Part shown: piece after piece, positions 28,238 through 46,685 of the stretch
Layout of the letters: each line of letters opens with the position of its first letter
Numbering within the stretch: position 1 is the stretch's first letter
Source of the DNA: Verrucomicrobium sp.
GTDB lineage: Bacteria > Verrucomicrobiota > Verrucomicrobiia > Methylacidiphilales > UBA1321
DNA length: 64,000 nt
Direction of reading: 5' to 3'
Assembly (NCBI GenBank): GCA_017849585.1
Contig: JAFIGT010000031.1
Span: forward strand, 62,001-126,000
The notes under the pieces: model-generated
Database searches by the model: none
What the model was told of the DNA's origin: nothing
The model's input: only the letters and a program-made list of their open reading frames with translations
Translations under genes and position numbers: made by a program

Positions 28238-29686
28238 TTAAATTCCGGGAAGTTCCTTGTGCCATTCCGTCGTCTGCTCGTAACCGTGCGCCGCGCGGAG
28301 CACGTTTTCCTCGCCCCACTGCGCGCCGATGATCTGCAATCCGATCGGCAATTTCGACTTCGTAAAGCCGCACGGAATCGAGATACCGCACACGCCTGCG
28401 AGATTGACCGCAATCGTGAAAATATCCGCGAGATACATCTGCAACGGATCGCTCGTCTTCTCGCCCACCTTGAACGCCGCCGTCGGCGAGGTCGGCGTCA
28501 GGATCGCATCGCACTTCGTGAACGCCTGCTCGAAGTCGCGCTTGATCAACTGCCGCACCTTCTGCGCGCGATTATAATAGGCGTCGTAGTAACCCGAACT
28601 CAGCACGTACGTGCCGAGAATGATGCGCCGCTTCACCTCGGGACCGAAACCCTGTTCACGCGTGGAGCGGTACAGATCGAGAATGTCCTTCGGATTCTTC
28701 ACGCGATTGCCGTAGCGCACGCCCTCGAACCGGGCGAGATTCGCCGACGCTTCCGCCGGGGCGATGATGTAATAGACCGCGCACGCGTATTCCGTGTGCG
28801 GCAGCGAGATGTCGACAATCTCCGCGCCCTGCTTCGCGAAATGCTCAATCGCCGCCTTCGTCGCCGCCTCGACCTCCGGGTCGATACCGCTGATGAAATA
28901 TTCCTTCGGCACGCCGAGCTTCATCCCGCGCAAATCCTGCTTCAATGCGTCCGTGTACTTCGGCACGGGACGATTCACGCTCGTGTTGTCCTTCGGATCG
29001 TGACCGCTGATCACTTCCATGAGCAACGCGGCGTCTTCCACCGTCTTCGTGAACGGCCCGATCTGGTCCAGGCTCGACGCGAACGCAACGAGTCCGTAGC
29101 GCGACACGCGGCCATACGTCGGCTTCAACCCGACGCAACCGCACAGCGCCGCCGGTTGACGAATCGATCCGCCGGTGTCCGAACCCAGCGCGGCAAAGGC
29201 TTCATGTCCGCCCACCACCGCCGCCGAGCCACCGCTCGAACCGCCGGGAATGCGGTCCGTGTCCCACGGATTGCGCGTCACGCCCCAGCTCGAATTTTCC
29301 GTGGAGGAACCCATCGCGAATTCGTCCATGTTCGTGCGGCCCACCAGCACCGCGCCCGCTTCGCGCAGCTTCTTGATCACCGTCGCATCGTACGGAGCCG
29401 TGTAGCCCTGCAAAATCTTCGACGAACACGTGCACGGATCGCCCTGCACATTGATCACGTCCTTGATCGCGATCGGCACGCCGCCGAGCGGCTTGCTCAA
29501 GTCGGCCGCCTGCGCCGCCGCACGCACCTTGGCCGCGTCGGGCTTGAAATTGTACGCGTTCAACTTGCCATCGGCCTGCTCAATGCGGGCCAGCAATTGA
29601 TCCGCCACGTCGACCGCCGTGATTTCCTTTGCGGCCAGTTTGCGGCGCAACGACGCCACCGATTCGGTATATAAAGGGGAGCTCAT
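28238..29686 (-). CDS. gatA: Asp-tRNA(Asn)/Glu-tRNA(Gln) amidotransferase subunit A
   Basis: A 482-residue amidase that frees ammonia from glutamine for the GatB reaction. The amidase signature is intact: catalytic Lys in GGVPIAIKDVINV, cis-Ser and nucleophile Ser in GGSSGGSAAVVGG...SDTGGSIRQPAALCG. It lies between gatC (4-base gap) and gatB (13-base gap) in one operon. The length is typical for the family. Confidence 0.97.
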   Translation of the reverse strand: MSSPLYTESVASLRRKLAAKEITAVDVADQLLARIEQADGKLNAYNFKPDAAKVRAAAQAADLSKPLGGVPIAIKDVINVQGDPCTCSSKILQGYTAPYDATVIKKLREAGAVLVGRTNMDEFAMGSSTENSSWGVTRNPWDTDRIPGGSSGGSAAVVGGHEAFAALGSDTGGSIRQPAALCGCVGLKPTYGRVSRYGLVAFASSLDQIGPFTKTVEDAALLMEVISGHDPKDNTSVNRPVPKYTDALKQDLRGMKLGVPKEYFISGIDPEVEAATKAAIEHFAKQGAEIVDISLPHTEYACAVYYIIAPAEASANLARFEGVRYGNRVKNPKDILDLYRSTREQGFGPEVKRRIILGTYVLSSGYYDAYYNRAQKVRQLIKRDFEQAFTKCDAILTPTSPTAAFKVGEKTSDPLQMYLADIFTIAVNLAGVCGISIPCGFTKSKLPIGLQIIGAQWGEENVLRAAHGYEQTTEWHKELPGI

Positions 29687-31754: not shown

Positions 31755-31872
31755 TCATCTCCAATTTTCAAATACCAAATTCCAATTCACGCCAGCGTGT
31801 ATAAAATCTGCGTAATCTGCGGACTTTCCCCTCCTCTTCCCAATTGGCATTTGGCAATTGGAATTTGGAAAC
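31755..31872. repeat. Repeat-filled gap in the phage cluster (families A and F)
   Basis: The gap before the hub-like gene's stop contains AT-rich B-like sequence (31760-31790), a family F copy AATCTGCGTAATCTGCGGAC (31805 onward, also found at 39853) and a family A copy CAATTGGCATTTGGCAATTG (31841 onward). Nearly the whole gap is repeat DNA. Confidence 0.65.
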
Positions 31873-33678: not shown

Positions 33679-33717
33679 ATTTCCAATTTCAAATCTGAAA
33701 TTTGAAATTCCCGATTA
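33679..33717. repeat. Family B AT-rich repeat between hub-like and fiber genes
   Basis: ATTTCCAATTTCAAATCTGA, then AATTTGAAATTCCCGATTA. It contains the palindromic core TTTCAAATCTGAAATTTGAAA, and its end supplies the TAA stop codon (33715-33717) of the fiber gene. It fills the 51-base gap between the two genes. Confidence 0.7.
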
Positions 33718-35283
33718 TTTTCCCACCCAACCCGTATTGCCCGCGCCCGATTGCTTCACATAGAGCGTCGTCCCCGCGCCGCCATCGGAACGTAGGTAGA
33801 GCGAACCGACCGGAGCGGCCACCGCGCTCTCTGGGGAACCGGAGCCGGAGAGAATTTTCGCACCGGAGGCGAAGGTAACGCCACGACCGGCACCAGCAAT
33901 AACCAGACTGGCATCCAGCAAGGTGAACGGCTGAACATCGCCCAGATAGTTGTGATACCGCAGTCCGTAAGACTCATCCAAATAAACACTATTACTAATT
34001 GGTCCTATATATAATCTCCCGGCACCGCCCAGGACTACCGTTCCGGTCTGGGAAGGTTGAGACGGATCGCCCACATAGAGCACGGGAGAGCCTGTGGAAG
34101 TTGTGGCCGCCAACGTCTGGCTGTTTGCCACAAACGTATTGCTGCCATACAATCCCGCCTTGTTCGCGAGAACATCCCGCTCCAGCGCACTCAACACCTG
34201 CTCGGTCTGGAGATCATTCGCCACCGTCAACCCCACATTGGTCACATGGAATCCCGAAACATAACTGGGATCGGCATTCGTCGGGACCGTGGGAACGGGC
34301 GAGCTGTAGGTCACAAAGTCCGCCGTGTCGACGAGCACGCCGCGGTCCGGCGAGAACTGATGCAGATTGAGCCGATACTTTCCCGCTGGAGTGACATACG
34401 GCGTGCCATCCAGATTCGTCACCAAGGTCGGCGCGCCTTCGGCATGATTCAAAATCAATGACGCGCCCGCGTATCCGCTGAACGGCGAGGATGACGTCAT
34501 GTGGTAGACGTTAATATTCGCCCCCACCGTGGGAGCATAGTCCGTCCCATGCAGATGATACACGCTGCCGATTTTCACAATACCCGAGGCCGTGCATTTC
34601 GTGTTCGGAAACGTCCCCGTGATCTTGATCGGAGCACCGAAAGTATCGGTTCCCGTGGAACTCGGATAGAACGGCACGGCATAATTGTGGGCGGGATTGT
34701 CCGCCGTATTGGCCAGCACATAGAGCGTGCCGTCGATCCGCTGAAAGCCACTGTGCCAGATATAAGCCGAACCGGTCGACGCCGCCAGTTGCGCCGCCAT
34801 ATCCGGCGTGGTGACATTCGTCCAATGGATCAGATCCTTGGACCGGATCATGCCGAACTTCGCCGAGTATGTGGGCGAGGCATACGGATACATCGCCGTG
34901 AACGCGCAGTAAAACGTATCGTCGACCTTCAAGATCTTCGGGTCGCGAAACGTGGGATAGACTCCGTCCACCGCCACTTCGTACAACCACCTCTTGCTTG
35001 TCGGCGTGTAATGCACGCCATCACGAGAAGTATAGAGAAGCAGGCCCACGCCGCTCGAACCGTATACATTATCATTGCCAAACGAGGCCATGAGGTGCGT
35101 CGTCGTCGGACTTGTCGCTTGCAAATTTCCAGTCACGCGCAGTTGACCCGAAAACGTCTTAATCCCGGCAATCTCCTGATCACGGTTTTTCGAAACAAAA
35201 GCGTCTTCCCCCGACGCCAGTCCCGCGCAGGCCGAAAACAACCACGCCACGCCCGCCCCAAAAGTAATCCAAATTTTAAACAT
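33715..35283 (-). CDS. Fiber-like protein: signal peptide, glycosidase-like beta-propeller, phage-fiber tail
   Basis: A 522-residue protein. It starts with a signal-peptide-like MFKIWITFGAGVAWLFSACAGLASG. Residues about 30-340 form a GH43-like five-bladed propeller: FRDPKILKVDDTFYCAFTAMY (Asp-Pro motif), RSKDLIHWTN, and AEGAPTLVTNLDG with a possible catalytic Glu. The C-terminus, APVGSLYLRSDGG...TLYVKQSGAGNTGWVGK, is a typical phage tail-fiber ending. A glycan-degrading or glycan-binding fiber is therefore likely. The export signal is unusual for a particle protein. It lies among tail-completion genes, seven bases after the previous stop codon. Confidence 0.7.
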   Translation of the reverse strand: MFKIWITFGAGVAWLFSACAGLASGEDAFVSKNRDQEIAGIKTFSGQLRVTGNLQATSPTTTHLMASFGNDNVYGSSGVGLLLYTSRDGVHYTPTSKRWLYEVAVDGVYPTFRDPKILKVDDTFYCAFTAMYPYASPTYSAKFGMIRSKDLIHWTNVTTPDMAAQLAASTGSAYIWHSGFQRIDGTLYVLANTADNPAHNYAVPFYPSSTGTDTFGAPIKITGTFPNTKCTASGIVKIGSVYHLHGTDYAPTVGANINVYHMTSSSPFSGYAGASLILNHAEGAPTLVTNLDGTPYVTPAGKYRLNLHQFSPDRGVLVDTADFVTYSSPVPTVPTNADPSYVSGFHVTNVGLTVANDLQTEQVLSALERDVLANKAGLYGSNTFVANSQTLAATTSTGSPVLYVGDPSQPSQTGTVVLGGAGRLYIGPISNSVYLDESYGLRYHNYLGDVQPFTLLDASLVIAGAGRGVTFASGAKILSGSGSPESAVAAPVGSLYLRSDGGAGTTLYVKQSGAGNTGWVGK

Positions 35284-35290
35284 AAAAATA

Positions 35291-35908
35291 TTACACTCCA
35301 GATTCCGGGGAGCCGACCTGCATGATGCCGTCCTCAAACCAAATCGAACGCCACTGATTCAAAGTCGTGTCCCGCAGTTGAAATTCATTTCCGTTCTTCA
35401 ATCGAAACGCGCCGTTATTTTCCGCGACGATCGGAGGCAAACCCGTCGCACCACTTTCCTTCACCTTGAGCAGGCCGAAGCCAAACATCACGCGCCGCAC
35501 CGGCACATCCGTCGTCAACCCAAAGAGAGCAAAGTAAAAAACCTTCTCCAGCTCGCCGCCGAGATCGAACGCCGTCTCCGCCCCGCTGAAAGCGAACAGC
35601 GCATGTTGCTTGCTCTCATCCGCCCACAACGTCGCATCCAGCGTCCCGTCCAAATTTGCCGCCGGGATCGTCCGGCTCGCCAGCGGAATCCCGGTGATTC
35701 CCGCCACGTCATTCGCCTTGATCTCCAGCGTCATCGACGCAAAGTTCGAAATCTCGAGCAGCTCCGCCCCGCGGAACAGCCCCACCTCGAACGCCACATC
35801 ATTGCCCCGCCAAAGCACCGGCGCCGCCGCCGTGCGCACTTCCCTCACCTGCTCAAAACGGGCCGTATCGACCCCGATTCGCAGGCGTTGTCGTGTGAGT
35901 AATGCCAT
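35291..35908 (-). CDS. Phage-like structural (baseplate/fiber-adaptor-like) protein
   Basis: A 205-residue protein directly upstream of the fiber gene. It is beta-rich with no membrane segment: VLWRGNDVAFEVGLFRGAELLEISNFASMTLEIKA, then a C-terminal part FRLKNGNEFQLRDTTLNQWRSIWFEDGIMQVGS that looks like a fiber-attachment module. The N-terminal pattern recalls BppU-type baseplate domains. An upstream open extension of 52 codons is Arg/Ser-rich and overlaps the previous gene; ATG at 35908 is preferred. The function is inferred from position. Confidence 0.55.
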   Translation of the reverse strand: MALLTRQRLRIGVDTARFEQVREVRTAAAPVLWRGNDVAFEVGLFRGAELLEISNFASMTLEIKANDVAGITGIPLASRTIPAANLDGTLDATLWADESKQHALFAFSGAETAFDLGGELEKVFYFALFGLTTDVPVRRVMFGFGLLKVKESGATGLPPIVAENNGAFRLKNGNEFQLRDTTLNQWRSIWFEDGIMQVGSPESGV

Positions 35909-35924: not shown

Positions 35925-36329
35925 TTAAACCGGCGGCTGTGTCCGCAACAAGCCGCCCTTGATTCGATACATGACCGTGCTGCTGCAGCCCACGTAGGCC
36001 GACTCGGCGACTTCCACCAACGCCGCATCGAGATACCGCGCGATCTCCTGTCCGTTATCGCCACGCGCCGTGAACGTCACGAGTCCACCTGGCGGCACCT
36101 CCGCTTCGTGCGCGAGGAGAAACACCTCCGCGTCGCGCACCGACGCATGCAGCCGCGTCACCGCAAACGTGATCGTCGTCGCCTGATTTTTCCGGTCGAA
36201 GAACGCACTCGCTGCCGCGCGCAAAAAATGTGCCTGCTCCACCAGCCGTTCATGACTCACCTTGAAATCGCGTACCCCGACGGGACCGCTCATCTCCGCG
36301 AGCACAAATTCGTTGATCGTGATCCTCAC
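35925..36329 (-). CDS. Phage-like structural protein of unknown function
   Basis: A 134-residue protein beginning at GTG (36329), which overlaps the stop of the previous gene (GTGA), a mark of translational coupling. It is mixed alpha/beta (VRITINEFVLAEMSGPVGVRDFKVSHERLVEQAHFLRAAASAFFDRKNQ). Its position after a tail-completion-like gene suggests a tail tube, completion or adaptor role, but no family is recognised. Confidence 0.6.
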   Translation of the reverse strand: MRITINEFVLAEMSGPVGVRDFKVSHERLVEQAHFLRAAASAFFDRKNQATTITFAVTRLHASVRDAEVFLLAHEAEVPPGGLVTFTARGDNGQEIARYLDAALVEVAESAYVGCSSTVMYRIKGGLLRTQPPV

Positions 36330-36769
36330 AACACCTCCCCTTGCGCAAAACCGTCGCGCGTCTCGAGACAAACGTCATACGTCAGCAACGCTTCATCATT
36401 CTGCCGCACGATCGTCCTCGCCGCCGCGAAAAGTGTTTCCGCGATCGCCCCCGGTTGAAACTGATGCAGCAATGTCGCCGCCCGTTCCGCCACCTCCAGA
36501 GCATGCGGACCCGAATTCAACTCGACGTTCTCCTGCACGCGAATCGTCACCGCGATCTGGTCCAGGTACGGCCCCGGCGCCTCAGGATGCCGCACCCCCG
36601 CCTCGGGAGTCAGCACGAGACACACCACGCCGAGCGAATCCACCTGCCTCTGCACCTCGTAGTTCAAATTCCGCTCCCGCTCCGTCAAGACCGGCACCGA
36701 GGCAAAAAGCGGATCGGCCGCGAGTCGCGCCGCCAGTTCTTCCTGCAACGCCAGCAACACACTACTCAT
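36326..36769 (-). CDS. Phage tail-completion-like protein (minor tail)
   Basis: A 147-residue protein coupled by four-base overlaps to both neighbours. The pattern LLALQEELAARLAADPLFASVPVLTERE...VTIRVQENVELN...ALEVAERAATLLHQFQP is that of small tail-terminator/completion proteins (gp37-like, DUF1834-like) of Mu-type phages. It follows the DUF1320-like connector gene exactly as in those phages. No sheath or tape-measure gene follows it. Confidence 0.6.
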   Translation of the reverse strand: MSSVLLALQEELAARLAADPLFASVPVLTERERNLNYEVQRQVDSLGVVCLVLTPEAGVRHPEAPGPYLDQIAVTIRVQENVELNSGPHALEVAERAATLLHQFQPGAIAETLFAAARTIVRQNDEALLTYDVCLETRDGFAQGEVL

Positions 36770-37206
36770 ACGCCCTCCTCACGCGCCGCGCCGAATTGCC
36801 GCACCCGCGCCGTGATCGTCGGCCGCCCGCTGTCCGTCGACTCCGCATCCGGCGTCAACGGCTCTTCGATATCGAACAGTCCGTTCGCCACCTGCTCGAG
36901 CAGCCGCAACGCCGCCTGCGCATTCAATTTGCGCACCTCGTTCGGATTCACCCGCACCCGCTGCGGCAACCGCAACGCGATCAAATCCAGCGCAGGTGCG
37001 AGCAGCTTCTCGGGAATCGTCCCCGCCTCGCCGAGACGATTTCGCCCCCACGCGCCCACGTAACCGCGCACCAGCGCGACCACCTGCGCGAGCGTCGGCG
37101 CCACCGGGTCCGACTGCCCCGACGCCTTCGCCGCATGGCGATACGCCTCCAGTTCCGGACCAGACAACACCGTCAACACATCCGCTTCTGTTATAGAAAT
37201 CCACAT
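36766..37206 (-). CDS. DUF1320-like (Mu gp36) head-tail connector protein
   Basis: A 146-residue helical protein with the pattern of the DUF1320/gp36 family: ITEADVLTVLSGPELEAYRHAA, then LAQVVALVRGYVGAWGRN and TIPEKLLAPALDLIALRLPQRV, i.e. a plate of helices that joins head and tail. It comes after the capsid gene in transcription order, as in Mu-like phages. Its stop overlaps the next start (ATGA). Confidence 0.65.
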   Translation of the reverse strand: MWISITEADVLTVLSGPELEAYRHAAKASGQSDPVAPTLAQVVALVRGYVGAWGRNRLGEAGTIPEKLLAPALDLIALRLPQRVRVNPNEVRKLNAQAALRLLEQVANGLFDIEEPLTPDAESTDSGRPTITARVRQFGAAREEGV

Positions 37207-37379
37207 ATAGAAAAGTTTTCAATTTTCGGTTTTCAGTTTCGTGGCGTGAACATCAGCGTCTTGGCACGGATCGGACGTACCAAGACCTCCACTCATCGCG
37301 CGATCTGTCCACCCTCCCGCAAACGCTCCACGAGCTCACTCGTGGTGTCAGCGTTACGGGGTCCAAGGCTCAGCCTTGG
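37207..37379. other. Repeat-bearing gap between capsid and connector genes
   Basis: The 173-base gap contains an AT-rich stretch (TTTTCAATTTTCGGTTTTCAG, near 37217) and, abutting the capsid stop codon, a family E palindrome CCAAGGCTCAGCCTTGG (37363-37379). No ORF is seen in it. Confidence 0.5.
37363..37379. repeat. Stop-adjacent palindrome, family E (after capsid gene)
   Basis: CCAAGGCTCAGCCTTGG touches the TAG stop codon of the minus-strand major capsid gene. Confidence 0.7.
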
Positions 37380-38327
37380 CTAGGAGACGTTCAACCGGCG
37401 GATCGCGGCGGCGTTCGTCACCTCGACGTCTTCGCTCCAGTCGAACTTCGCCACTTCCACGCGACCATCCTCACGGACGTACGAACCCGGAACCATGTAC
37501 GCGCCCATGAGACGAAACGTTTTCATGAAGCTCGGATCGCGGCGCGTGGGATTCTCCATGCGCGCAAAGACCAGCACCGTGCTGTCGAGCAGGAAGCTGA
37601 TATTCTCCGCCAAACCTTCGGCGGCGGTATCCACCACCATGTAGCTCGTGCGCACCTGCGGATTACCGAGGAACAAACGCGAGGCATCCTCCTCAGTCGG
37701 CAGCGCCACGGCGGCGCCATTGTTCGCGCGAGTCGAACCCGTCACGAACTTGCTGCGCACGCTCGACGCATTCTTGAACAAGCGCCAGGCCGACGCGCCG
37801 AACAGCACGCCCACATTCATCAAGCTGCCGTACTTGGCGGCCTTGATGACATCGAGAATGGCCGAGTCAATATCGTCGACCGGATCGGTCGACGAACCAC
37901 CGGTCCAGGTCTTGTCCGTGCCCGCACCGGCTGCAGCGACCGCCTTGTCGATGACCGATTTTTCGTGGGCGAGAGCGGCGACCTCCGCGATCATCGTCGC
38001 CCCTTCCTGCAAGGCATTTTCCACGCCCGACTGCTCGAGCATTTCCAGATGATCCACCGGATAATCCAGCGCATGCGGCTGGCAATTGTAGGTCGCGTCC
38101 GAGACCTCGAAGCTCAGCTCGGTCGCGCGACCGCCGATACCGCGGAACGTCGCGGGCAGATGGAAGCGATTCTTTTCGTTATAGATTTTGTATTTGCCGA
38201 TGCTCGTCGCAACGGGAACCGTGGGAGCGATGAAATCCGCCACGGGATTGATGGCCGCCTGAGCCGCGCCCTGGGCGTATTCGCGCAGAGTGGGGTTGGC
38301 GCTGATAGTAGCCAAACGTGAAGACAT
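37380..38327 (-). CDS. Major capsid protein
   Basis: A 315-residue protein with the features of HK97-fold capsid proteins: N-terminal arm and propeptide-free start (LATISANPTLREYAQGAAQAAINPVADFIAPTVPV), a long helix region (VENALQEGATMIAEVAALAHEKSVIDKAV), and the P/A-domain LMNVGVLFGASAWRLFKNASSV...TSYMVVDTAAEG, close to Mu gpT and similar coat proteins. It sits directly after the decoration-protein and protease genes, as expected. No ribosome site is evident before the ATG; the leader is a repeat of TTCTAAG-like units. Confidence 0.8.
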   Translation of the reverse strand: MSSRLATISANPTLREYAQGAAQAAINPVADFIAPTVPVATSIGKYKIYNEKNRFHLPATFRGIGGRATELSFEVSDATYNCQPHALDYPVDHLEMLEQSGVENALQEGATMIAEVAALAHEKSVIDKAVAAAGAGTDKTWTGGSSTDPVDDIDSAILDVIKAAKYGSLMNVGVLFGASAWRLFKNASSVRSKFVTGSTRANNGAAVALPTEEDASRLFLGNPQVRTSYMVVDTAAEGLAENISFLLDSTVLVFARMENPTRRDPSFMKTFRLMGAYMVPGSYVREDGRVEVAKFDWSEDVEVTNAAAIRRLNVS

Positions 38328-38392
38328 ATATTTTTGTAGTTCTAAGTATTAAGTTCTAGGTTCTAAGTTTTCGTAGACAGCTCTTGTGCTGG
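38328..38392. repeat. Tandem TTCTAAG/TTCTAGG units between capsid and decoration genes
   Basis: TTCTAAGTATTAAGTTCTAG followed by GTTCTAAGTT (38340-38369) is a degenerate tandem of a seven- to eight-base unit. It occupies most of the 65-base leader of the major capsid gene. Confidence 0.6.
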
Positions 38393-38818
38393 CTAGACCG
38401 TCACAACACCGACTGGCACCGGGCGCACGCGCACCAGTTGACCATCCGCGCCGGACTCCTCCGCGATGGCCAGCACGCGATAGGAACCAGCCGTGGCCGG
38501 AATCTTGCGCAGCTTGCCCTTGTCGGCCGCAGTGCTCGGATCGGCCAGCACGAGCTGATCGCCCGGCACGCACGTGCTCTTCAGCACCACGCGATGATTC
38601 CGGCTCGGCTCGAGCGGCTGCAACGTGACGTTATCGCCGCTGGCATCGCCGCCATCCGTGATGACATAGAAAGCCAGATCGGTGATCGCATCGGGCAGAT
38701 AGGCTTTCGCCTCGCCCGAGGCATTACGAATTTCCGCGAGGTACCCGGCTTTCGCGGACAGATCTTCGCCGGAAGCCATGACAATGGCGCCGGACTGGGT
38801 ATTGGATTGTGAACTCAT
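38393..38818 (-). CDS. Capsid decoration-like protein
   Basis: A 141-residue beta-rich protein between protease/scaffold and capsid genes. This is the usual location of a decoration (head-stabilising) protein. It has SSQSNTQSGAIVMASGEDLSAKAGYLAEI at the N-terminus, the pattern of small DUF2190-type or gpD-like proteins, and a barrel-like remainder with PGDQLVLADPST and GSYRVLAIAEESG. No transmembrane segment. The assignment is by position and pattern. Confidence 0.6.
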   Translation of the reverse strand: MSSQSNTQSGAIVMASGEDLSAKAGYLAEIRNASGEAKAYLPDAITDLAFYVITDGGDASGDNVTLQPLEPSRNHRVVLKSTCVPGDQLVLADPSTAADKGKLRKIPATAGSYRVLAIAEESGADGQLVRVRPVPVGVVTV

Positions 38819-38862
38819 TTTAGTAGATATTTTCTGTTATAGATTTCTGTTTGAGTGACGGA

Positions 38863-39336
38863 CTAAGCCGCCTTCTCGATTTCGCCGCGTGCCATCTGGA
38901 ATGCCTGCGTATGACCCAGCCCGAGCTGCTTCTGCAACTCACGGGCCCGGTTCGCGATCCGCCGCGCCCGCGCTTCCTCGGCCGGAGATTTCTCCGCCGC
39001 AAAAGCCGTCTCCGGCACACGCGACTGCGCGCGGTTATGCAGCACCGACTTCGGCTCTGCCACAACGGGCAACGCGACCGGCTGGCGCAACGCGCGCAGC
39101 GTCGTCAACGTCCCCTCGCGATTCGCCAGCAACTGCGACCGCACCGTCTCCACATCGCCGACCACGGCGGTGAACTCGAGCAAGTCGTCATCGACCCGCT
39201 CGGCCAGCAACGCCGCATAGCGCTGCTGTAAATTTTTAGCTTCCGCAAGCAACGCATCGGCGGCCGTCACGATTTGCTCGTCCGTCGCCTCCGCCTTCAG
39301 CCCGAGAAGCTCCAACAACTTCGATTTGTAATCCAT
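38863..39336 (-). CDS. Nested scaffold protein (Mu gpZ-like), internal start
   Basis: A 157-residue product from an in-frame internal start within the protease gene. AAAGGAAGAAACG precedes the ATG, placing GGAAG six bases away, a better ribosome site than that of many genes here. The product MDYKSKLLELLGLKAEATDEQI... is helical and contains no protease residues, as expected for a scaffold. In Mu, gpZ is made from the C-terminal part of gene I in the same way. Confidence 0.6.
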   Translation of the reverse strand: MDYKSKLLELLGLKAEATDEQIVTAADALLAEAKNLQQRYAALLAERVDDDLLEFTAVVGDVETVRSQLLANREGTLTTLRALRQPVALPVVAEPKSVLHNRAQSRVPETAFAAEKSPAEEARARRIANRARELQKQLGLGHTQAFQMARGEIEKAA

Positions 39337-39843
39337 CGTTTCTTCCTTTGCTTCCGTTCGATTCGTCAAGGGGACCAACCCCTTCAAATTCGGATCGTTC
39401 GTCAGCGCCACGCGCGACAGGCGCAACGGACGCACCTTGTTCTCCTCCCCGTCCACGACCTCGCAGTCGCTGCGGTTCCACACCGGCGAGACCAGGCGAT
39501 AACGCCCGCCCCGCACGGCGGTTTCGCCCAGATCACTCCAGCGAATCTGCGCCCAGAGCCCCGGCGCCTTCGCCGGCTCCGATTCCGCACGCAGCGCCAT
39601 GATCCAGCCCGCCGCCGCGCTGGTCCTTTCCGACGAGTGAGAAAAGTGATCGAAGTCCACCAGCAACCCCGGAAAATTCGGCGTCGCGGCGTCCTTCGCA
39701 AAATTCGACACCATCGCGTTGCACGCCGCGCCATCGATGACCTGGCGCACACCGCTCGCATGTTCGAATTCCCCCAACGGCGCGATATGGAACCAATCGT
39801 CTGCCGGCAGGGTAAAAGGGTGTTCAATAGTGAGAGTTTTCAT
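38863..39843 (-). CDS. Mu gpI-like head maturation protease with scaffold domain
   Basis: A 326-residue protein. Residues 1-165 match the Mu-type I protease pattern: HIAPLGEFEH, GLLVDFDHFSHSSERTSAAAGWI (possible catalytic His), ARLSP-like RYRLVSPVWN, and RLSRVALTNDPNLKGLVPL, an ending typical of the family. Residues 170-326 form a helical, Ala/Glu/Arg-rich scaffold. An internal ATG at 39336, behind a strong ribosome site, would make the scaffold alone, as Mu gpZ is made inside gpI. ATG at 39843 gives the normal start. Confidence 0.75.
   Translation of the reverse strand: MKTLTIEHPFTLPADDWFHIAPLGEFEHASGVRQVIDGAACNAMVSNFAKDAATPNFPGLLVDFDHFSHSSERTSAAAGWIMALRAESEPAKAPGLWAQIRWSDLGETAVRGGRYRLVSPVWNRSDCEVVDGEENKVRPLRLSRVALTNDPNLKGLVPLTNRTEAKEETMDYKSKLLELLGLKAEATDEQIVTAADALLAEAKNLQQRYAALLAERVDDDLLEFTAVVGDVETVRSQLLANREGTLTTLRALRQPVALPVVAEPKSVLHNRAQSRVPETAFAAEKSPAEEARARRIANRARELQKQLGLGHTQAFQMARGEIEKAA
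39341..39348 (-). promoter_or_regulatory. Internal ribosome site for the nested scaffold
   Basis: On the minus strand AAGGAAGA lies four to six bases before the internal ATG at 39336. It supports separate translation of the scaffold part of the protease gene. Confidence 0.6.
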
Positions 39844-39852
39844 GATTTGTTT

Positions 39853-39880
39853 TGAATCTGCGTTAATCGGCGGACTTTCC
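39853..39880. repeat. Family F repeat at the portal gene's end
   Basis: AATCTGCGTTAATCGGCGGA followed by CTTTCC, also found as AATCTGCGTAATCTGCGGAC at 31805. It covers the last codons and TAA stop of the portal gene (39863-39865) and the leader of the protease gene. Confidence 0.65.
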
Positions 39881-40945
39881 ATTGCCCGCTCCAAGTTGAA
39901 AGAACGCCCGCACCGGAGCGCCCGGAAATTTTTCCGCGAGAATCCGCGCATCGAATTGTTTCTGGAACACCTCCGAAATCTCCAGCGCCTCCGACGTCGC
40001 GATTTCATTGAATGTGTTTGCGTGCGCCCCGCCCGCCAACGTCCCGCTGCCGCTCTGCGCCAGCATCGTCAACTTGCCGCCCGTCCCCGCCAGCACGATG
40101 CACTCGTCCTGATAACGGATATGTTCGGAAAACGGAGTCGTGCCGCCGCTGTACGGCGTGACCGTTTGCACCTTCGCCCCGTTCGGCATCGTCCCGCGCG
40201 AATCGCCAATCACCGCCTCGGCCTGCGCATGATACAGCGCCTCCTTGTCGGCCGGCACATTCGGCGGCAGCTCGATAAAGAGCGGCGGAATCCCGTACGT
40301 TTCGACAAACCCGTCCCAATCCTTTTGACTCAGGCTCTGGCGCAAGTGCGAGATCACCGCGATCTCATTGATCGGGTCCTCCACCTCACGCACCAGAAAG
40401 TCATTCAGATCCAGCACCGGATCGTCCTCCCGCGCCGCGCCACTGCGCGCCTCCGCATTGTACTGCCACGGACCATTCAGTCCCTGGCGGAACAACAGCC
40501 ATTGCGGCACCGGCTCAAAGTGCGCCACGCCGCCATCCTCCCCGCGATGGAATTCCAAGTGGGCATAACCCCGGAACTCCGCCAGGGCCAGAAAGCCAAT
40601 CGCCTCGCGCAGATTATCGATCCGCTCGTACGCCGCCCGCAACGCCTCCGCCTGTCGCGACGCCAGACCGGGAATTTCAGCTCTCCGATTCGAAATTGGA
40701 GATTCCTCGAGATCCACCTCCAGCACCGACCAATCCAGCCGCGTCACCGCGCTCAGACGTCGTGCCTTCACCGCCCGCAGCGTCGCATTGCGTCGCTCCA
40801 CTGCGCGGAAAAGCCATTGCAGGTTTGCATACTCGCCGCGCTCCCCCGCCTCCAGCAGGGCGACCGCCTGCATCATCGTCAGGCCGCGCAACGGGTTGAA
40901 CCCATCGCGCCACCGATTCATTTTTTTGAGTTGTGTTAAATTCAT
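39863..40945 (-). CDS. DUF935 (Mu gp29-like) portal protein
   Basis: A 360-residue portal, the ring through which DNA enters and leaves the head. It has the DUF935 pattern: NPLRGLTMMQAVALLEAGERGEYANLQWLFRAVERRNATLRAVKARR at the N-terminus, the domain YAHLEFHRGEDGGVAHFEPVPQWLL, and IPPLFIELPPNVPADKEALYHAQAEAVIGD. It is shorter than Mu gp29 (about 510). Residues 81-93 (ESPISNRRAEIPG) come from an in-frame family B repeat, and the last codons from a family F repeat. It follows the terminase gene in transcription order. Confidence 0.82.
   Translation of the reverse strand: MNLTQLKKMNRWRDGFNPLRGLTMMQAVALLEAGERGEYANLQWLFRAVERRNATLRAVKARRLSAVTRLDWSVLEVDLEESPISNRRAEIPGLASRQAEALRAAYERIDNLREAIGFLALAEFRGYAHLEFHRGEDGGVAHFEPVPQWLLFRQGLNGPWQYNAEARSGAAREDDPVLDLNDFLVREVEDPINEIAVISHLRQSLSQKDWDGFVETYGIPPLFIELPPNVPADKEALYHAQAEAVIGDSRGTMPNGAKVQTVTPYSGGTTPFSEHIRYQDECIVLAGTGGKLTMLAQSGSGTLAGGAHANTFNEIATSEALEISEVFQKQFDARILAEKFPGAPVRAFFQLGAGNGKSAD
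40668..40706. repeat. Family B repeat, in frame in the portal gene
   Basis: GGAATTTCAGCTCTCCGATT then CGAAATTGGAGATTCC. Aligned with the copy at 33679 it matches at about 29 of 35 positions. It encodes ISNRRAEIPG; the copy at 57593 encodes ISNLKSEIPA in a different gene in the same frame and orientation. Confidence 0.6.
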
Positions 40946-40988
40946 TCGTTTTGTGCCGCCAGCGATCTGCTGTCAGCGGTTAGCTTGT

Positions 40989-43166
40989 TCAACCTTCAAT
41001 CCTTCTTCCCCCGGAACGGTTACCCGCAGGCACCCGCCCGAATCCCGGCGACACCGTGGCCGATTCCGTCGCATCCAATTGCCGCGCCAACGCCGCGTAG
41101 GCCGTCGCGAGCAGAAAATGGTTCTCGCACTTGTCGACGTAATGCAGCGACTTCCCATCCCCGCTGCGCTCCTGCCGACTGCCCGCCAGCAAATGCTGTT
41201 CGTACGTGGCCAGAATCGGCGGCATCTGCGCCGTGCGCTCCGGCAGCAGGAATCGCGGTCCACCGGGGTGCTGCAAATCCGCAATCACCCGCGCAATCGT
41301 TTCCTCGCGATTGCACGCGACGAGCGGATACTGCGCGCCGTCCTGCGTCACACCCGTTTTTTGCCGGATGCCCTGACCTTCCCGCAGCGTGAACTCCACC
41401 GTCGCGGCGCGGAGATAACGCCACATCGCCGCCGCCTCGTCCCAACGCTGAGCCGATCCCGCCCCGAGCGTGAAGCAGAGATCCCGCGACAAATCGCGCA
41501 ACGGCCCCGCATCCACACACAGGATTTTCACCCCCAGCGCCCGGCACAATTCCGGCACCCGCTCACGCACCCGTTCGGCCGAGATCATCTCCGCCCAGAC
41601 GAGGCGCACCGCGAATTCCGCACGTGACAGGAGCAAGTCCTCCGGCCACTCCATCTCCAGCGCCACGAACCAGCAGCGGTCGCCCATATCGAGCCCCGCA
41701 TAGCGCACCCGAGTCGGCGCAACGCGTGTCGGCATCGTCAGCGCGAGCGAGTACGGCTCCGCCTCCCGTGCCCGCTGCAACGCCGCCGGGTCGAGCCCTT
41801 GCGACAGGCTGCGTGGCAACGCGAGCCGGTCCGTGCAGAACGCGATCATCTTTTCCGAATCGCGCACCGCCTCGGCCCACGCCACCACGATCTGGCGCAA
41901 ATCAATCGCCTCAATAATCAGCTGCGAAACGCGGTAGCTCCACTTGCGCTGCGCCTCGCGGTCCGGTCGACGCGCCACAAAGCGCACACTCCGCCGATCC
42001 AGCGGCGCACCCGTCACCGGGTCCGCCAGATACACCCGCGCGTTTCCTTCACGCATCGCTGTCACCGGCCAACGTTGACCCGTCGCCGCCGAGACGAAAT
42101 CGCCTTCCAACGTCAATTGCGGATCGTCCGCCTGCGGCACCCCCAAGAGCGAAAGACGGCACACCTGCGGCCAGTGTTCTTCCGGGTTGAGGCCCGCATT
42201 GCCAATTTCCAATTGCCAATCGGGAATTGACTGAGTCGGCTCGTTCCACTTCTCCCCAATCGGACCACGCAATGAACTGGCGTCAACCTGCCCACCTGCA
42301 TGCGGCTGTTTTTCAATTGGCATTTGGCAATTGGAGATTGGAAATAAAAATCCCACATGCTGCGTTCCTTCCTCGAACTCCCGGTTCTGACCCGCCCCGT
42401 GGTAACGTTGCGTGCCGATGGAGAGCGAGAAACGGAGATCGCTCGCGGTCAGGCGACCAACGAGAAACTTCGCGTTGTATTCGGCGATGTCGTCCTTCTC
42501 ATCCTGAATCACCACATCCATCGAGAACGTGGTCGGCACCTTGCCCATGCCGCGCACGTACGCGAGCGCAGTGCGGGTGCCATCGGTGATGAGGAGAGCG
42601 CCCTTGCGATTGACCGCACGGCCCGAGCCGTTGAGCGTGCGCCCGAGTTGAATCAGCCGCGCCACCGCCGGAATTTGATCCAGCACGTCGGGCCGCAATT
42701 TGCCGTCCACGATACCTTGCACCAAGTCGTCATCCGGCAAGTAATAGCCCACGTTGCGGAATCGCACCGCGGCGAGATACACGAGCAGATTCAACATCAA
42801 CACCGTCTTGCCGAACTGCGCCCCGCCGCAAATCGCGAGGGAGGCGTCTTGCATTGGCAATTGAGAATTTCCAATTGTCAATTTTTCGGAGGCCACATTT
42901 GATACCTGGCCCGAACTGCCTTGCTCTTCAATTGGCATTTGGCAATGGGCGATTGGCAATCCCGCACTCCCCAGAATCGCATCGATCCGCGCCACGATCT
43001 GCGCGAGCGCTTCGCGTCCGGTAAAGTGATACGGCACATACTGCGCCCCGTCCTTCACGCGGGCATGACGCACGAGAAAATCGCGAAACGAGTCCATCGG
43101 CACGAGCGCGGCCATTTCGGCCACGTCCGCGTCCAATTGCTGGGAGAGATAATCAATGGGGTTCAT
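40989..43166 (-). CDS. Large terminase subunit (Mu gp28-like) with two repeat-encoded inserts
   Basis: A 725-residue DNA-packaging motor. Walker A is GGAQFGKT (residues 114-121), Walker B DVVIQDEKDD (217-226), and the nuclease half has GLDMGDRCWFVALE and ILCVDAGPLRD with acidic metal ligands. It is longer than Mu gp28 (about 550). Part of the excess is two inserts, about residues 71-107 (just before Walker A) and 276-323 (after Walker B). Both are encoded by copies of the same family A repeat and keep the frame open. The ATG at 43166 gives a normal start. Confidence 0.85.
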   Translation of the reverse strand: MNPIDYLSQQLDADVAEMAALVPMDSFRDFLVRHARVKDGAQYVPYHFTGREALAQIVARIDAILGSAGLPIAHCQMPIEEQGSSGQVSNVASEKLTIGNSQLPMQDASLAICGGAQFGKTVLMLNLLVYLAAVRFRNVGYYLPDDDLVQGIVDGKLRPDVLDQIPAVARLIQLGRTLNGSGRAVNRKGALLITDGTRTALAYVRGMGKVPTTFSMDVVIQDEKDDIAEYNAKFLVGRLTASDLRFSLSIGTQRYHGAGQNREFEEGTQHVGFLFPISNCQMPIEKQPHAGGQVDASSLRGPIGEKWNEPTQSIPDWQLEIGNAGLNPEEHWPQVCRLSLLGVPQADDPQLTLEGDFVSAATGQRWPVTAMREGNARVYLADPVTGAPLDRRSVRFVARRPDREAQRKWSYRVSQLIIEAIDLRQIVVAWAEAVRDSEKMIAFCTDRLALPRSLSQGLDPAALQRAREAEPYSLALTMPTRVAPTRVRYAGLDMGDRCWFVALEMEWPEDLLLSRAEFAVRLVWAEMISAERVRERVPELCRALGVKILCVDAGPLRDLSRDLCFTLGAGSAQRWDEAAAMWRYLRAATVEFTLREGQGIRQKTGVTQDGAQYPLVACNREETIARVIADLQHPGGPRFLLPERTAQMPPILATYEQHLLAGSRQERSGDGKSLHYVDKCENHFLLATAYAALARQLDATESATVSPGFGRVPAGNRSGGRRIEG
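42198..42345. repeat. Family A composite repeat, in frame in the terminase gene (copy 2)
   Basis: An arm TTTCAATTGGCATTTGGCAA (42311 onward) and an inverted arm ATTTCCAATTGCCAAT (42205 onward) flank about 80 bases of unique sequence. The minus strand reads FPISNCQMPIEKQ ... GQVDASS ... IPDWQLEIGN. The whole block matches copy 1 in peptide order (PI..CQMPIE.Q...GQV...). Confidence 0.75.
42853..42960. repeat. Family A composite repeat, in frame in the terminase gene (copy 1)
   Basis: An arm CAATTGGCATTTGGCAATGG (42929 onward) and an inverted arm CCAATTGTCAATTTTT region (42853-42886) flank about 42 bases. It is translated as LPIAHCQMPIEEQ ... GQVSNVASEKLTIGNSQLPMQ. Twenty bases are identical to copy 2. 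Confidence 0.75.
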
Positions 43167-43186
43167 GGCAGTGAGTTCGCTGTCTT

Positions 43187-43244
43187 CTGTAGGGCGATTC
43201 TGCGAACCGCCGCGACGGCACACAGTGCCGTCCTACAACAAGAC
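43187..43244. repeat. Family C double-hairpin repeat (copy 1)
   Basis: Begins CTGTAGGGCG and ends CCGTCCTACAACAAGAC, with near-matching terminal inverted repeats TGTAGGGCGA/CCGTCCTACA. Between them are two small hairpins (GGCGATTCTGCGAACCGCC and GACGGCACACAGTGCCGTC). A copy with about 50 of 57 matching bases lies at 56410. It fills the terminase-to-gp27-like gap. Confidence 0.75.
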
Positions 43245-43252
43245 ATTTCGTT

Positions 43253-44017
43253 TCAGGCTCCGGGGGTTTCCTCCAGAAGGGGTGGTGTCTGAACCGTCAT
43301 TTTTTTGATCTTCGCTTTGGCCCGCATCGCTTCCTTCAGCTTCGCGCGGAAGAACACGAACGATTCGCGCACTTCGGGGTGCGCTTTAATTTCGTCCGCG
43401 AGCGCGTTGAGCGCCTTTTCCAGATCGGACTGGAACTGGCGCTCCATCTTTTCGCGCTGGAGCGCGAGCGCTTCCTTCGCCCGGGTACGGGACACATCCT
43501 GACCGCGCGCCTGCAACAAGAGCCGGGTGAATTTCTCCACCTGCTTCGTATTCAGCTCGCGCTGGGTGATCATGCGGAAGGCTTGCTGTCCGAGCGCTTT
43601 CAACAGCACTTCGCTGAAGTCGAGGTCCGAGTGGCGCAACACATTGATCATCGCGTCGGCATCGGCCGAGGCAGTGTCGAACGTGTTCTGCCACCGGCGC
43701 CGCGCCTCCTCCTGGTAGAACTCCACCACGGGCGCGTCCTCCGTGAAGCGCAACCCCTGCTCCGCTTCCAGCATGCGCCGCAGCGTCGAAATGGGCGCGC
43801 CGCTGATGACGAAGTCGGCAATGTGTCCGCGCGTCTCTTCATCGAGCGCGCGCAGATCGTCGATCGTAGCCAGCCGCACCGCCACCGGCGCTTCGGCTTC
43901 ACTCGGGACTTCCGGTGTAGCCGAAGCCGCTGGAGCCTCACCTGCCGATAGCGGCGTACTGGGTGCAACGTCACGCTGCCGCCGGGGGGTGTGCGTTTTG
44001 GTCTTCTTGGTAATCAT
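43253..44017 (-). CDS. Mu gp27/DUF3486-like small terminase candidate
   Basis: A 254-residue helical protein directly upstream of the large terminase. LRALDEETRGHIADFVISGAPISTLRRMLEAEQGL has the pattern of the DUF3486/gp27 family helix-turn-helix, followed by a long coiled coil rich in Gln/Arg/Lys. In Mu the gp27 homologue partners the large subunit gp28, so this is the likely small terminase. Residues about 11-45 are Ala/Pro-rich and encoded by two dispersed repeats (a family D palindrome and a GGTGTAGCCGAAGCC element). ATG at 44017 is preferred. Confidence 0.6.
   Translation of the reverse strand: MITKKTKTHTPRRQRDVAPSTPLSAGEAPAASATPEVPSEAEAPVAVRLATIDDLRALDEETRGHIADFVISGAPISTLRRMLEAEQGLRFTEDAPVVEFYQEEARRRWQNTFDTASADADAMINVLRHSDLDFSEVLLKALGQQAFRMITQRELNTKQVEKFTRLLLQARGQDVSRTRAKEALALQREKMERQFQSDLEKALNALADEIKAHPEVRESFVFFRAKLKEAMRAKAKIKKMTVQTPPLLEETPGA
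43965..43979. repeat. Family D palindrome inside the gp27-like gene
   Basis: GCAACGTCACGCTGC (one mismatch in the palindrome), preceded by GGGT. It is translated on the minus strand as QRDVAP. The neighbouring GGTGTAGCCGAAGCC (43914 onward) also occurs at 26652. Confidence 0.6.
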
Positions 44018-44028
44018 GACCGTTTCGG

Positions 44029-44337
44029 TTATGGCGCCACGCTGCTGCGCTCCGCCAGTTGACGTCCGCTCGCCGTCAGCCGCCACTCGGTCAGACCGCT
44101 GAGTTCATCCACGCGGAAATCCACGTAGTCCTTCTCCTTCCAGGCGCGCAGCACGACGAGCAACTCGTCGCGTGTGACGCCGGGATGGGCGAGGTTGAGC
44201 TGGATATGCAGCGTGTCTTCATCGAGCCAGTAGCTGCCACAGGGCTTGAGCGCGCGCAGCAACTTCGCGCGAAGAATGGGTACAGTTGTTTTCATGGGTC
44301 GTGGGCCACTCGGGCCAGTCGGAAATGGGGTCGTCAT
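44029..44337 (-). CDS. Mu gp26-like small phage protein
   Basis: A 102-residue winged-helix-like protein: VTRDELLVVLRAWKEKDYVDFRVDELSGLTEWRLTASGRQLAE. The start at 44337 overlaps the stop of the gp25-like gene (ATGA), so the two are coupled; an internal ATG at 44295 is an alternative. Its position between gp25-like and gp27-like genes is that of Mu gp26. Function unknown. Confidence 0.65.
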   Translation of the reverse strand: MTTPFPTGPSGPRPMKTTVPILRAKLLRALKPCGSYWLDEDTLHIQLNLAHPGVTRDELLVVLRAWKEKDYVDFRVDELSGLTEWRLTASGRQLAERSSVAP

Positions 44338-44699
44338 CGGATCGCTCCGGTCTTGTTGAGCAGATCAACCACCTGTCCGGGCAGTTGCTGCATCTTGTCG
44401 TTGATGTCGCGGGTGAAGAGGTCGATGCGCTGGTGCGCGCCGCCGATCTCATGCCGCACGTCGTTCAGCTGGCTGTTGCTCTCGTGCCGGAGCTGGTTCA
44501 CCTCCGCCCGCATCAGGTGCAGCAGCTTCTCGAGCTCCGCCTCAATGGGCGGCTTGCGCTTGAAGTGCTGCACGATGTTGAGCACCAGCAGCAGCACGGC
44601 CGCAATCGCCGCCGCGTCCACCAGCCACGAGCTCATGCCCAGGGGCGTGCTTTGGGGAACGAATTCCGCCAGTACTAGCAGTAAGGGAGTCGTGGTCAT
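44334..44699 (-). CDS. DUF2730 (Mu gp25-like) membrane coiled-coil protein
   Basis: A 121-residue protein with one membrane helix (about residues 27-44, VDAAAIAAVLLLVLNIVQHF) and a coiled coil (ELEKLLHLMRAEVNQLRHESNSQLNDVRHEIGGAHQRIDLF). This is the layout of the DUF2730/gp25 family in Mu-like phages. It is coupled by four-base overlaps to the gene on each side. Function unknown; its place next to lysis-type genes suggests a membrane role late in the cycle. Confidence 0.7.
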   Translation of the reverse strand: MTTTPLLLVLAEFVPQSTPLGMSSWLVDAAAIAAVLLLVLNIVQHFKRKPPIEAELEKLLHLMRAEVNQLRHESNSQLNDVRHEIGGAHQRIDLFTRDINDKMQQLPGQVVDLLNKTGAIR

Positions 44700-45028
44700 G
44701 GTTTGGATCGGTAGAGGCGAAGACGGTTTTCCGTGCGGGCGCGAGAGGTGATCACAGGGTTGGGCCGCAGGTCAGGTGTCGGTCGTCCCGAGGCCGAGCC
44801 GAGCGATCTCACCACACTCGGCGGCAAGGTCGGCAGCGCGTCCGCGGGCGTAGAGAGCGAGGAGCGTGGCTCCGTCAATCTCGGGCCGGACATCGCCAAG
44901 CTCCCGACTTTCGGCCTCGGTAAGACGGACCAGGATGCCGTGCTGCAAGCCGCCAAGTTGCAAATTAATGCGATCCAAAGAACGCTCGAGCACAGCCTGT
45001 TTGAAGTTTTCCACATCGCGCGTGGCAT
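44696..45028 (-). CDS. Possible embedded Rz1-like lipoprotein (overlapping frame)
   Basis: A 110-codon frame that overlaps most of the 44772-45128 gene in another frame. It starts MPRAMWKTSNRLCSSVLWIALICNLAACS: basic start, hydrophobic core and lipobox LAAC, followed by a mature part with about ten prolines in 85 residues. That is the form of Rz1-type outer spanins, which are normally embedded out of frame in the Rz gene. Its stop codon overlaps the DUF2730 start (ATGA), as do the stops of true genes in this operon. Against it: no strong ribosome site, and the host frame lacks an Rz-type membrane helix. Confidence 0.4.
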   Translation of the reverse strand: MPRAMWKTSNRLCSSVLWIALICNLAACSTASWSVLPRPKVGSLAMSGPRLTEPRSSLSTPADALPTLPPSVVRSLGSASGRPTPDLRPNPVITSRARTENRLRLYRSKP

Positions 45029-45128
45029 GGGTTTTGGCCTCGTCTAGACGCTCCACCTGCGATTGGTTGGCCGCGTTGTTGATCAACTTGAGCAACTCGC
45101 CGCTGGCGGAGGCAATTTCGGTGATCAT
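44772..45128 (-). CDS. Small helical phage-cluster protein
   Basis: A 118-residue helical protein with a strong ribosome site (AGAGGGG) before its ATG. It begins MITEIASASGELLKLINNAANQSQVERLDEAK and has no membrane helix. It lies nine bases after the holin-like gene and could be a lysis or regulatory accessory. A second frame with a lipoprotein signal overlaps its C-terminal two-thirds, which is why its exact extent of use is uncertain. Confidence 0.55.
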   Translation of the reverse strand: MITEIASASGELLKLINNAANQSQVERLDEAKTHATRDVENFKQAVLERSLDRINLQLGGLQHGILVRLTEAESRELGDVRPEIDGATLLALYARGRAADLAAECGEIARLGLGTTDT

Positions 45129-45908: not shown

Positions 45909-46685
45909 ATGAGTGATAAACCGTTAGCAGGCAAAGTGGGCGTAGTCTTCGGCGTAGCCAATAAACGCAGCATTGCGTGGGCTATCGCGTCGGCTTGGGC
46001 CCAGGCCGGAGCAACTCTGATTTTCAACTATCAAGGCGAACGCGTCAAAGATAACGTCGAAGAACTCACCACCACCTTCGGTGCCAATACGCCGCTTTAT
46101 CCGTGCGATGTGTCCTCTGACCAGGAAATCGCCGAATTCTTCACCAAAGTCGGCCAACACACCGACCGCATCGATATGTTGCTGCATAGCGTGGCTTACG
46201 CTCCCCGCGAAGCGCTCACGGGAAATTTTGTCGACACCACACGCGAAGCTTACCTCACCGCTCATAATATCAGCGCTTACTCATTGCTCGGTTTGACCCG
46301 CGCAGCACTTCCGTATTTTAAAAACGGCGGCAGCGTGATCGCCATGTCGTATTACGGCGCGGAAAAAGTCATCCCGCATTACAACGTGATGGGCGTGGCG
46401 AAGGCGTCCCTCGAAGCCACCGTTCGTTATCTCGCGTATGATCTCGGCACGAAGAAAGTGCGCGTCAACGCCATCAGTGCTGGACCGATGAATACGCTCG
46501 CGGCGCGCGGTATCGGCGGATTCACTGAAATGTTGAAGTATTGTGAGGAGCACGCTCCATTGAAACGCAATGTGGAACCCGATGAACTCGGTGCTACGGG
46601 TACTTTCCTCGTCAGTGATGGTGCTGCCGCGATTACGGGTCAGACTCTTTACGTCGATTCCGGTTATTCGATCATGGGGATGTAA
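45909..46685 (+). CDS. fabI: Enoyl-[acyl-carrier-protein] reductase (NADH)
   Basis: A 258-residue short-chain reductase catalysing the last step of each fatty-acid elongation cycle. Cofactor loop GVANKRSIAWAIA, the FabI-type NYQGER after the second strand, and the catalytic Tyr-x6-Lys in YYGAEKVIPHYNVMGVAKASLEA are present; the C-terminus DGAAAITGQTLYVDSGYSIMGM is the family ending. The length is typical. The HAD gene starts four bases after its stop. Confidence 0.95.
   Translation: MSDKPLAGKVGVVFGVANKRSIAWAIASAWAQAGATLIFNYQGERVKDNVEELTTTFGANTPLYPCDVSSDQEIAEFFTKVGQHTDRIDMLLHSVAYAPREALTGNFVDTTREAYLTAHNISAYSLLGLTRAALPYFKNGGSVIAMSYYGAEKVIPHYNVMGVAKASLEATVRYLAYDLGTKKVRVNAISAGPMNTLAARGIGGFTEMLKYCEEHAPLKRNVEPDELGATGTFLVSDGAAAITGQTLYVDSGYSIMGM

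Follow-up and report, generated by a model that had tools for sequence, protein, structure and literature searches.

In-frame palindromic inserts with heptad-repeat arms in the terminase gene of a lake Verrucomicrobium, and a candidate link to four-helix-bundle genes

We show that the large terminase (terL) gene of a lake Verrucomicrobium (draft genome G000; 4.79 Mb in 43 contigs) carries two real, in-frame inserts that belong to a dispersed family of palindromic elements, that the arms of this family are shared with an element enclosing a four-helix-bundle gene, and that the terminase loops concerned hold other palindromes in sister species. Throughout, the window is the whole stretch of 64,000 nucleotides that was analysed, and unprefixed coordinates are those of the window.

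Results

Two palindromic inserts in a single open frame

The terL gene, its two inserts and a third copy of the element lie at the following positions.

40989..43166, minus strand: large terminase (terL) gene, 725 aa, one open frame with both inserts in frame
42853..42960, minus strand: palindromic element copy 1, 108 nt, 36 residues (about 70-105)
42853..42883: one of the two heptad arms of copy 1
42930..42960: opposite heptad arm of copy 1 (core 42927-42946)
42198..42345, minus strand: palindromic element copy 2, 148 nt, in a putative loop after Walker B, residues about 274-323
42198..42230: one of the two heptad arms of copy 2
42313..42345: opposite heptad arm of copy 2 (core 42312-42331)
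42231..42312: spacer of copy 2, single-copy in the genome (query 42240-42310)
31760..31869: third two-arm copy, intergenic, with an inner AATCTGCGTAATCTGCGGACTT motif

The terL product matches the phage large terminase phrog_675 in PHROGs (1.6e-24); a Pfam search of the protein gave no match. The gene is part of a Mu-like head module that includes a portal, a protease and a major head protein. An earlier reading of the sequence alone (the sequence-only reading) had proposed that one element is present twice in this gene, with 20 identical bases in the two copies, and that the frame and both ATPase motifs survive. We confirmed this: the 20 bases common to both copies, TTCAATTGGCATTTGGCAAT, lie at 42312-42331 and 42927-42946, the gene is one frame of 725 codons, and the Walker A-like GGAQFGKT and Walker B-like VIQDEKDD motifs are both intact. 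Copy 1 adds 36 amino acids to the terminase and copy 2 adds about 43-49. The third copy, in the intergenic DNA of the window, had not been noticed in that reading.

Each copy has inverted arms around a spacer, as had also been described. Both arms are built from heptamers in imperfect tandem, (ATTGGMA)n, and are inverted and about 32 nt long; those of copy 2 measure 33 nt and are 82% complementary, and those of copy 1 (42853-42883 and 42930-42960) pair more weakly. ATTGGCA is stop-free on both strands (IGNWQLA and CQLPIAN) and, 7 being coprime with 3, the peptide cycle of a perfect heptad array is the same in every frame. This stop-free, frame-independent reading may help the arms to pass in frame. 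Of the peptides said to follow in the same order in the two copies, the further GQV...S match is probably due to chance, because the two spacers look unrelated. Homology between the spacers was accordingly dropped as a candidate feature, the spacer of copy 2 not being a repeat.

RNA folding of copy 1 was no better than that of shuffled sequences (z -0.63), leaving an RNA-hairpin role for this copy unsupported; copy 2 (z -1.9) and the copy at 31760 folded somewhat better than their shuffles. An Rfam scan of the 64-kb window gave no match. In a weak AlphaFold model of the terminase (pLDDT 44.8), both inserts are drawn as coil between secondary-structure elements. The inserts appear to sit in terminase loops, a placement that relies mainly on alignment, the model being of very low confidence.

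Homologous terminases lack both segments

Protein matches in relatives are interrupted at residues 68|106 and 274|325. Such gaps had been predicted for gp28-like homologues, and in other genera they were found at residues 68-106 and 275-325. Both segments are missing from the alignment in five genomes of genus g3 and in three more distant ones. At site 1, the g3 sequence ASGEPDAS, to take one case, corresponds in the window to GSAG, 36 residues and then QDAS, a surplus of exactly 108 nt. G002, a genome of the window's genus, has copy 1 together with its spacer but minus seven codons; the missing 21 nt are three heptads of one arm. Because copy 1 and its spacer are common to G000 and G002, copy 1 is older than their split. 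Judged by alignment, both segments are confirmed as in-frame insertions of a palindromic element in terL. None of the orthologous slots that we compared is a clean empty site; these slots hold other palindromic sequence, and for this reason no target duplication is readable. As a separate observation, the CxxC ... CxxC pair of g3 terminases is absent in the window's genus (sites 2 and 4), where the insert takes the place of the first CxxC pair.

The genomes are metagenome-type drafts, in which repeats are easily misassembled, and the terminase inserts might in principle be assembly artefacts. However, copy 1 with its own spacer was recovered in two separate assemblies (G000 and G002), and all inserts in gap-free terminase homologues leave the frame intact. 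We regard the chance of an artefact as negligible.

In a comparison of G000 with G002, the terminase core outside the inserts has a dN/dS of 0.136, and the corresponding value within copy 1 is 0.6, calculated from few sites. By this codon-level measure, purifying selection is acting on the terminase core, and the insert-carrying terminase therefore seems to be retained and is probably functional.

The module in which the gene lies (about 36262-45128 in the window, with gatA at 28238-29686 and fabI at 45909-46685 outside it) occupies the same chromosomal place, between gatA and fabI, in three genomes of the genus. Its gene order is kept in another genus, and it is under purifying selection. It has the look of a domesticated and possibly gene-transfer-agent-like module, not of a recent prophage.

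The inserts belong to a dispersed family

With up to two mismatches allowed, the window contains 36 occurrences of the pattern AATTGNNAATTGNNAAT, where 1.1 are expected and the highest count among shuffles was 6, and the 18-base core, with up to one mismatch, was found at eight places in the genome against none for a reversed control. Occurrence of the repeat thus exceeds chance by both shuffles and the reversed control. A search of the host's own genome for exact AATTGNNAATTGNNAATTG gave no match because the arms are imperfect. The right-end arms have the consensus CAATTGGCATTTGGCAATTGGAAATTGGCAAT and the left-end arms its reverse complement. In G000 about 15 loci match this consensus, and in G002 about 20, some of them with a single recognisable arm; inverted arm pairs across the genome share one orientation. 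Interiors vary, and consist of short spacers, an inner GTCCGCNGATTACGCAGATT palindrome or whole small genes.

Growth of the loops by simple tandem-repeat slippage, with no mobile element involved, is suggested by the build of the arms as imperfect 7-nt tandem repeats and by the loss of three heptads (21 nt) from one arm of copy 1 in G002. This explanation is contradicted by the paired inverted arms, by dispersed copies that share one consensus and by the unique spacer, and we consider it very improbable.

The copies are mainly intergenic, and often follow a stop codon by a few bases. The sequence-only reading had suggested testing for an in-frame bias across the genome, and no such bias emerged: among 12 two-arm copies from two genomes, only two are in frame in a conserved gene, both of them in terL, and the rest are intergenic. 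The strict genome scan covered 759 kb of the 4.79 Mb in sampled stretches and missed copy 1, so that the counts from that scan are lower bounds. If about 15 copies were placed at random, the probability that two would fall in the 2.2-kb terL gene is, by our own estimate, roughly 2e-5; terL, or its module, is therefore preferred or unusually tolerant. In-frame copies concentrate in the conserved phage-head module.

Different palindromes occupy the same loops in relatives

Site 2 holds the ATTGGCA-arm element in G000, an element with GTTTTCAG arms in G002 and a palindrome of GGAGACC heptads in G001; the last of these is broken by a run of N, at which the frame is not judgeable. At site 3, G002 carries a GTCCGCAGATGACGC palindrome and G001 a further insert. 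Two further sites are used in genus g3: site 4, with GTTCTNAG arms in G008 and a perfect 28-nt inverted pair, GTAGCGGCGGTCTATGACCG, in G011; and site 5, with CGGAATTAACGGAA in both G007 and G008. Alignment of the terminases suggests that sites 1-3 have been re-used by different elements in G000, G002 and G001. A gene that neighbours the terminase in G008 also carries an in-frame palindrome, AAGGAAAAAGG, namely that for the Mu-like protease (L035:6486-7541, minus strand). Elsewhere in G008, an mfd-like gene (L128, on G008:C29) has an apparent in-frame peptide, DGHRPPLQ, which is the translation of the GTAGCGGCGGTCTATGACCG repeat also present in the G011 terminase.

Another explanation is that the palindromes move between loci and species by recombination, with homologous recombination or gene conversion, not transposition, swapping slots among related prophage-like modules. 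In its favour, identical slots hold different palindromes while their flanks are conserved. Cassette exchange does happen in this region: the open reading frame at 33715-35337 and its syntenic counterpart in G002 share only 34% identity, against about 98% for the immediate neighbour, which marks this frame as a replaced cassette. However, G000 has the same arms dispersed over about 15 unlinked loci that differ in flanks and spacers, and recombination alone does not make dispersed copies. We consider this explanation improbable.

The same arms flank a four-helix-bundle gene

At G000:C19:7937-8396, the arms of the terminase inserts (here 38 nt, 97% complementary) surround a 115-aa open reading frame whose product matches the Pfam four-helix-bundle family 23S_rRNA_IVP (PF05635; E 1e-20). 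Neither terminase copy contains this open reading frame. Five other well-matched four-helix-bundle genes that we read in the host's family have inverted AT-rich arms of different sequences. The arms of locus L124 fall below our arm threshold; they were noticed by eye, and again, as L150, in the flank survey described below.

The association of insert and gene recurs with other arms. In G002 the terminase insert and a four-helix-bundle element share the GTTTTCAG arm theme, which has 62 matches in that genome, many of them paired about 100 nt apart. In G008 it is the GTTCTNAG theme that the terminase insert and a four-helix-bundle element share, and 13 of its 16 genome matches lie within 9 kb (G008:C160:14418-23423), in the head module and around the four-helix-bundle gene. 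This clustering reflects local spread. In one intergenic slot compared between G000 and G002, the four-helix-bundle open reading frames are 64% identical, the flanks are 94% identical and the arms are different, so that replacement is likelier than descent.

Inverted heptad-period flanks of four-helix-bundle genes in many phyla

A contig scan with three four-helix-bundle proteins yielded 77 loci, from Verrucomicrobia, Bacteroidetes, Chloroflexi, Planctomycetes, Acidobacteria and others. We scored inverted repeats in the 250-nt flanks, taking 20 or more as strong. Strong flanking repeats were found at 46 of 75 four-helix-bundle loci and at none of 375 controls of the same geometry; with a second control set, the counts were 45 of 74 loci, 2 of 163 flanks of other open reading frames and 1 of 370 shuffled flanks. 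About a fifth of the four-helix-bundle genes score within the control range. Flanks of four-helix-bundle genes peak at lags of 7 and 14, whereas controls show the codon period. Arm sequence varies between lineages, and period 7 is common to them. We found no description of four-helix-bundle genes with heptad repeats in the open-access literature. The occurrence of similar ends around these genes in many phyla suggests a little-noticed kind of mobile element.

REP/RAYT and IS-derived MITEs are examples of palindromes moved by an unrelated transposase. The present palindromes could likewise be MITE-like and moved by an unrelated, unseen transposase, with the four-helix-bundle gene as one of several passengers. 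A two-ended inverted-repeat build is typical of MITEs, interiors vary and sometimes hold other small genes, and the source transposase may lie outside the incomplete G000 genome; no transposase was seen between matching arms in the copies that we read. Against this, four-helix-bundle genes are found with arms of unrelated sequence in phylum after phylum, a recurrence that a random passenger would not give. We consider this explanation unlikely, although it deserves to be taken seriously. Other small genes between the same arms are found at G000:C10:45156-45766 (158 aa) and G002:C10:39146-39847 (157 aa), the latter gene being absent from the syntenic copy at G000:C1:25813-26009.

Discussion

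Our preferred explanation, which we consider moderately probable, is that the terminase inserts are non-autonomous copies, lacking the open reading frame, of a small palindromic, intervening-sequence-like mobile element, and that the four-helix-bundle protein helps them to spread. This protein would act on the period-7 palindromic ends, and we infer that it is what moves the copies. Copies would persist mostly between genes; within a gene they would survive only in a loop, and only with a length and frame that keep the reading open, selection having removed all intragenic copies but those in frame. Where a palindrome already occupies a loop, it might attract others, giving a turnover of elements in one slot; we liken this to the re-use of the same rRNA hairpin loops by intervening sequences.

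A broader version, which we put forward only tentatively, is that mobile elements of this kind occur outside rRNA genes across the bacteria. They would have inverted period-7 arms, free in sequence, around an IVP/S23 gene, and ORF-less offspring, sometimes local, that write in-frame peptides into protein loops; the (pentameric) protein would read the heptad period rather than the sequence.

To our knowledge, in-frame palindromic inserts are known chiefly from Rickettsia and Wolbachia. The same phenomenon is now seen in Verrucomicrobia, in a gene whose core is under purifying selection; several unrelated palindromes use the same terminase loops in sister species, and elements with a four-helix-bundle gene are a candidate source of such palindromes. 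The IVP/S23 protein family is familiar from 23S rRNA intervening sequences. If the link proposed here is true, the function of these proteins becomes testable, as binding or mobilising inverted heptad arms, and much unexplained heptad-like intergenic repeat in environmental genomes would be explained.

Four known systems bear comparison with these elements. The TAACTGA heptamer repeats of Beggiatoaceae and others are intergenic tandem repeats, some of them within open reading frames (PMC4679880). They are direct repeats of a single fixed heptamer, unlike the inverted and variable arms described here, and we found no mention of a four-helix bundle in the text of that paper. Intragenic ERIC/RU and other bacterial MITEs are small inverted-repeat elements, mainly intergenic as families, with an occasional in-frame gene fusion (PMC2759123, PMC10969869). 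The present elements resemble them in being short and dispersed and in having terminal inverted repeats. However, the ERIC/RU and MITE families have a fixed sequence, whereas here the arms differ by genome while period 7 and the four-helix-bundle link are kept.

The intervening sequences of 23S rRNA have complementary ends, can hold a PF05635 open reading frame and replace the tetraloops of a few rRNA helices (PMC4990558); a structure cited in that paper presents the S23 protein as a pentameric ring. Complementary ends, the possible PF05635 open reading frame, insertion-tolerant loops and conserved slots are all shared with the present elements. Intervening sequences, however, are located in rRNA genes, and RNase III excises them with no subsequent religation, whereas the present elements lie in a protein gene or between genes and are translated when in frame.

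Rickettsia palindromic elements (RPE) are in-frame palindromes, and a given site may hold different RPE types in different orthologues (PMC3767692, PMC10969869). Like the terminase inserts, they and the Wolbachia palindromic elements are palindromes of 100-150 nt in protein genes, with the frame kept. The sequence-only reading had drawn the comparison with this group, and the resemblance stands for in-frame behaviour but does not extend to a general bias towards coding frames, most copies here being intergenic and only the two of 12 two-arm copies in terL lying in an open reading frame. The likeness is one of behaviour, in a host outside the Rickettsiales, and the elements described here differ further in that their arms are 7-nt tandem repeats and some copies hold a four-helix-bundle open reading frame.
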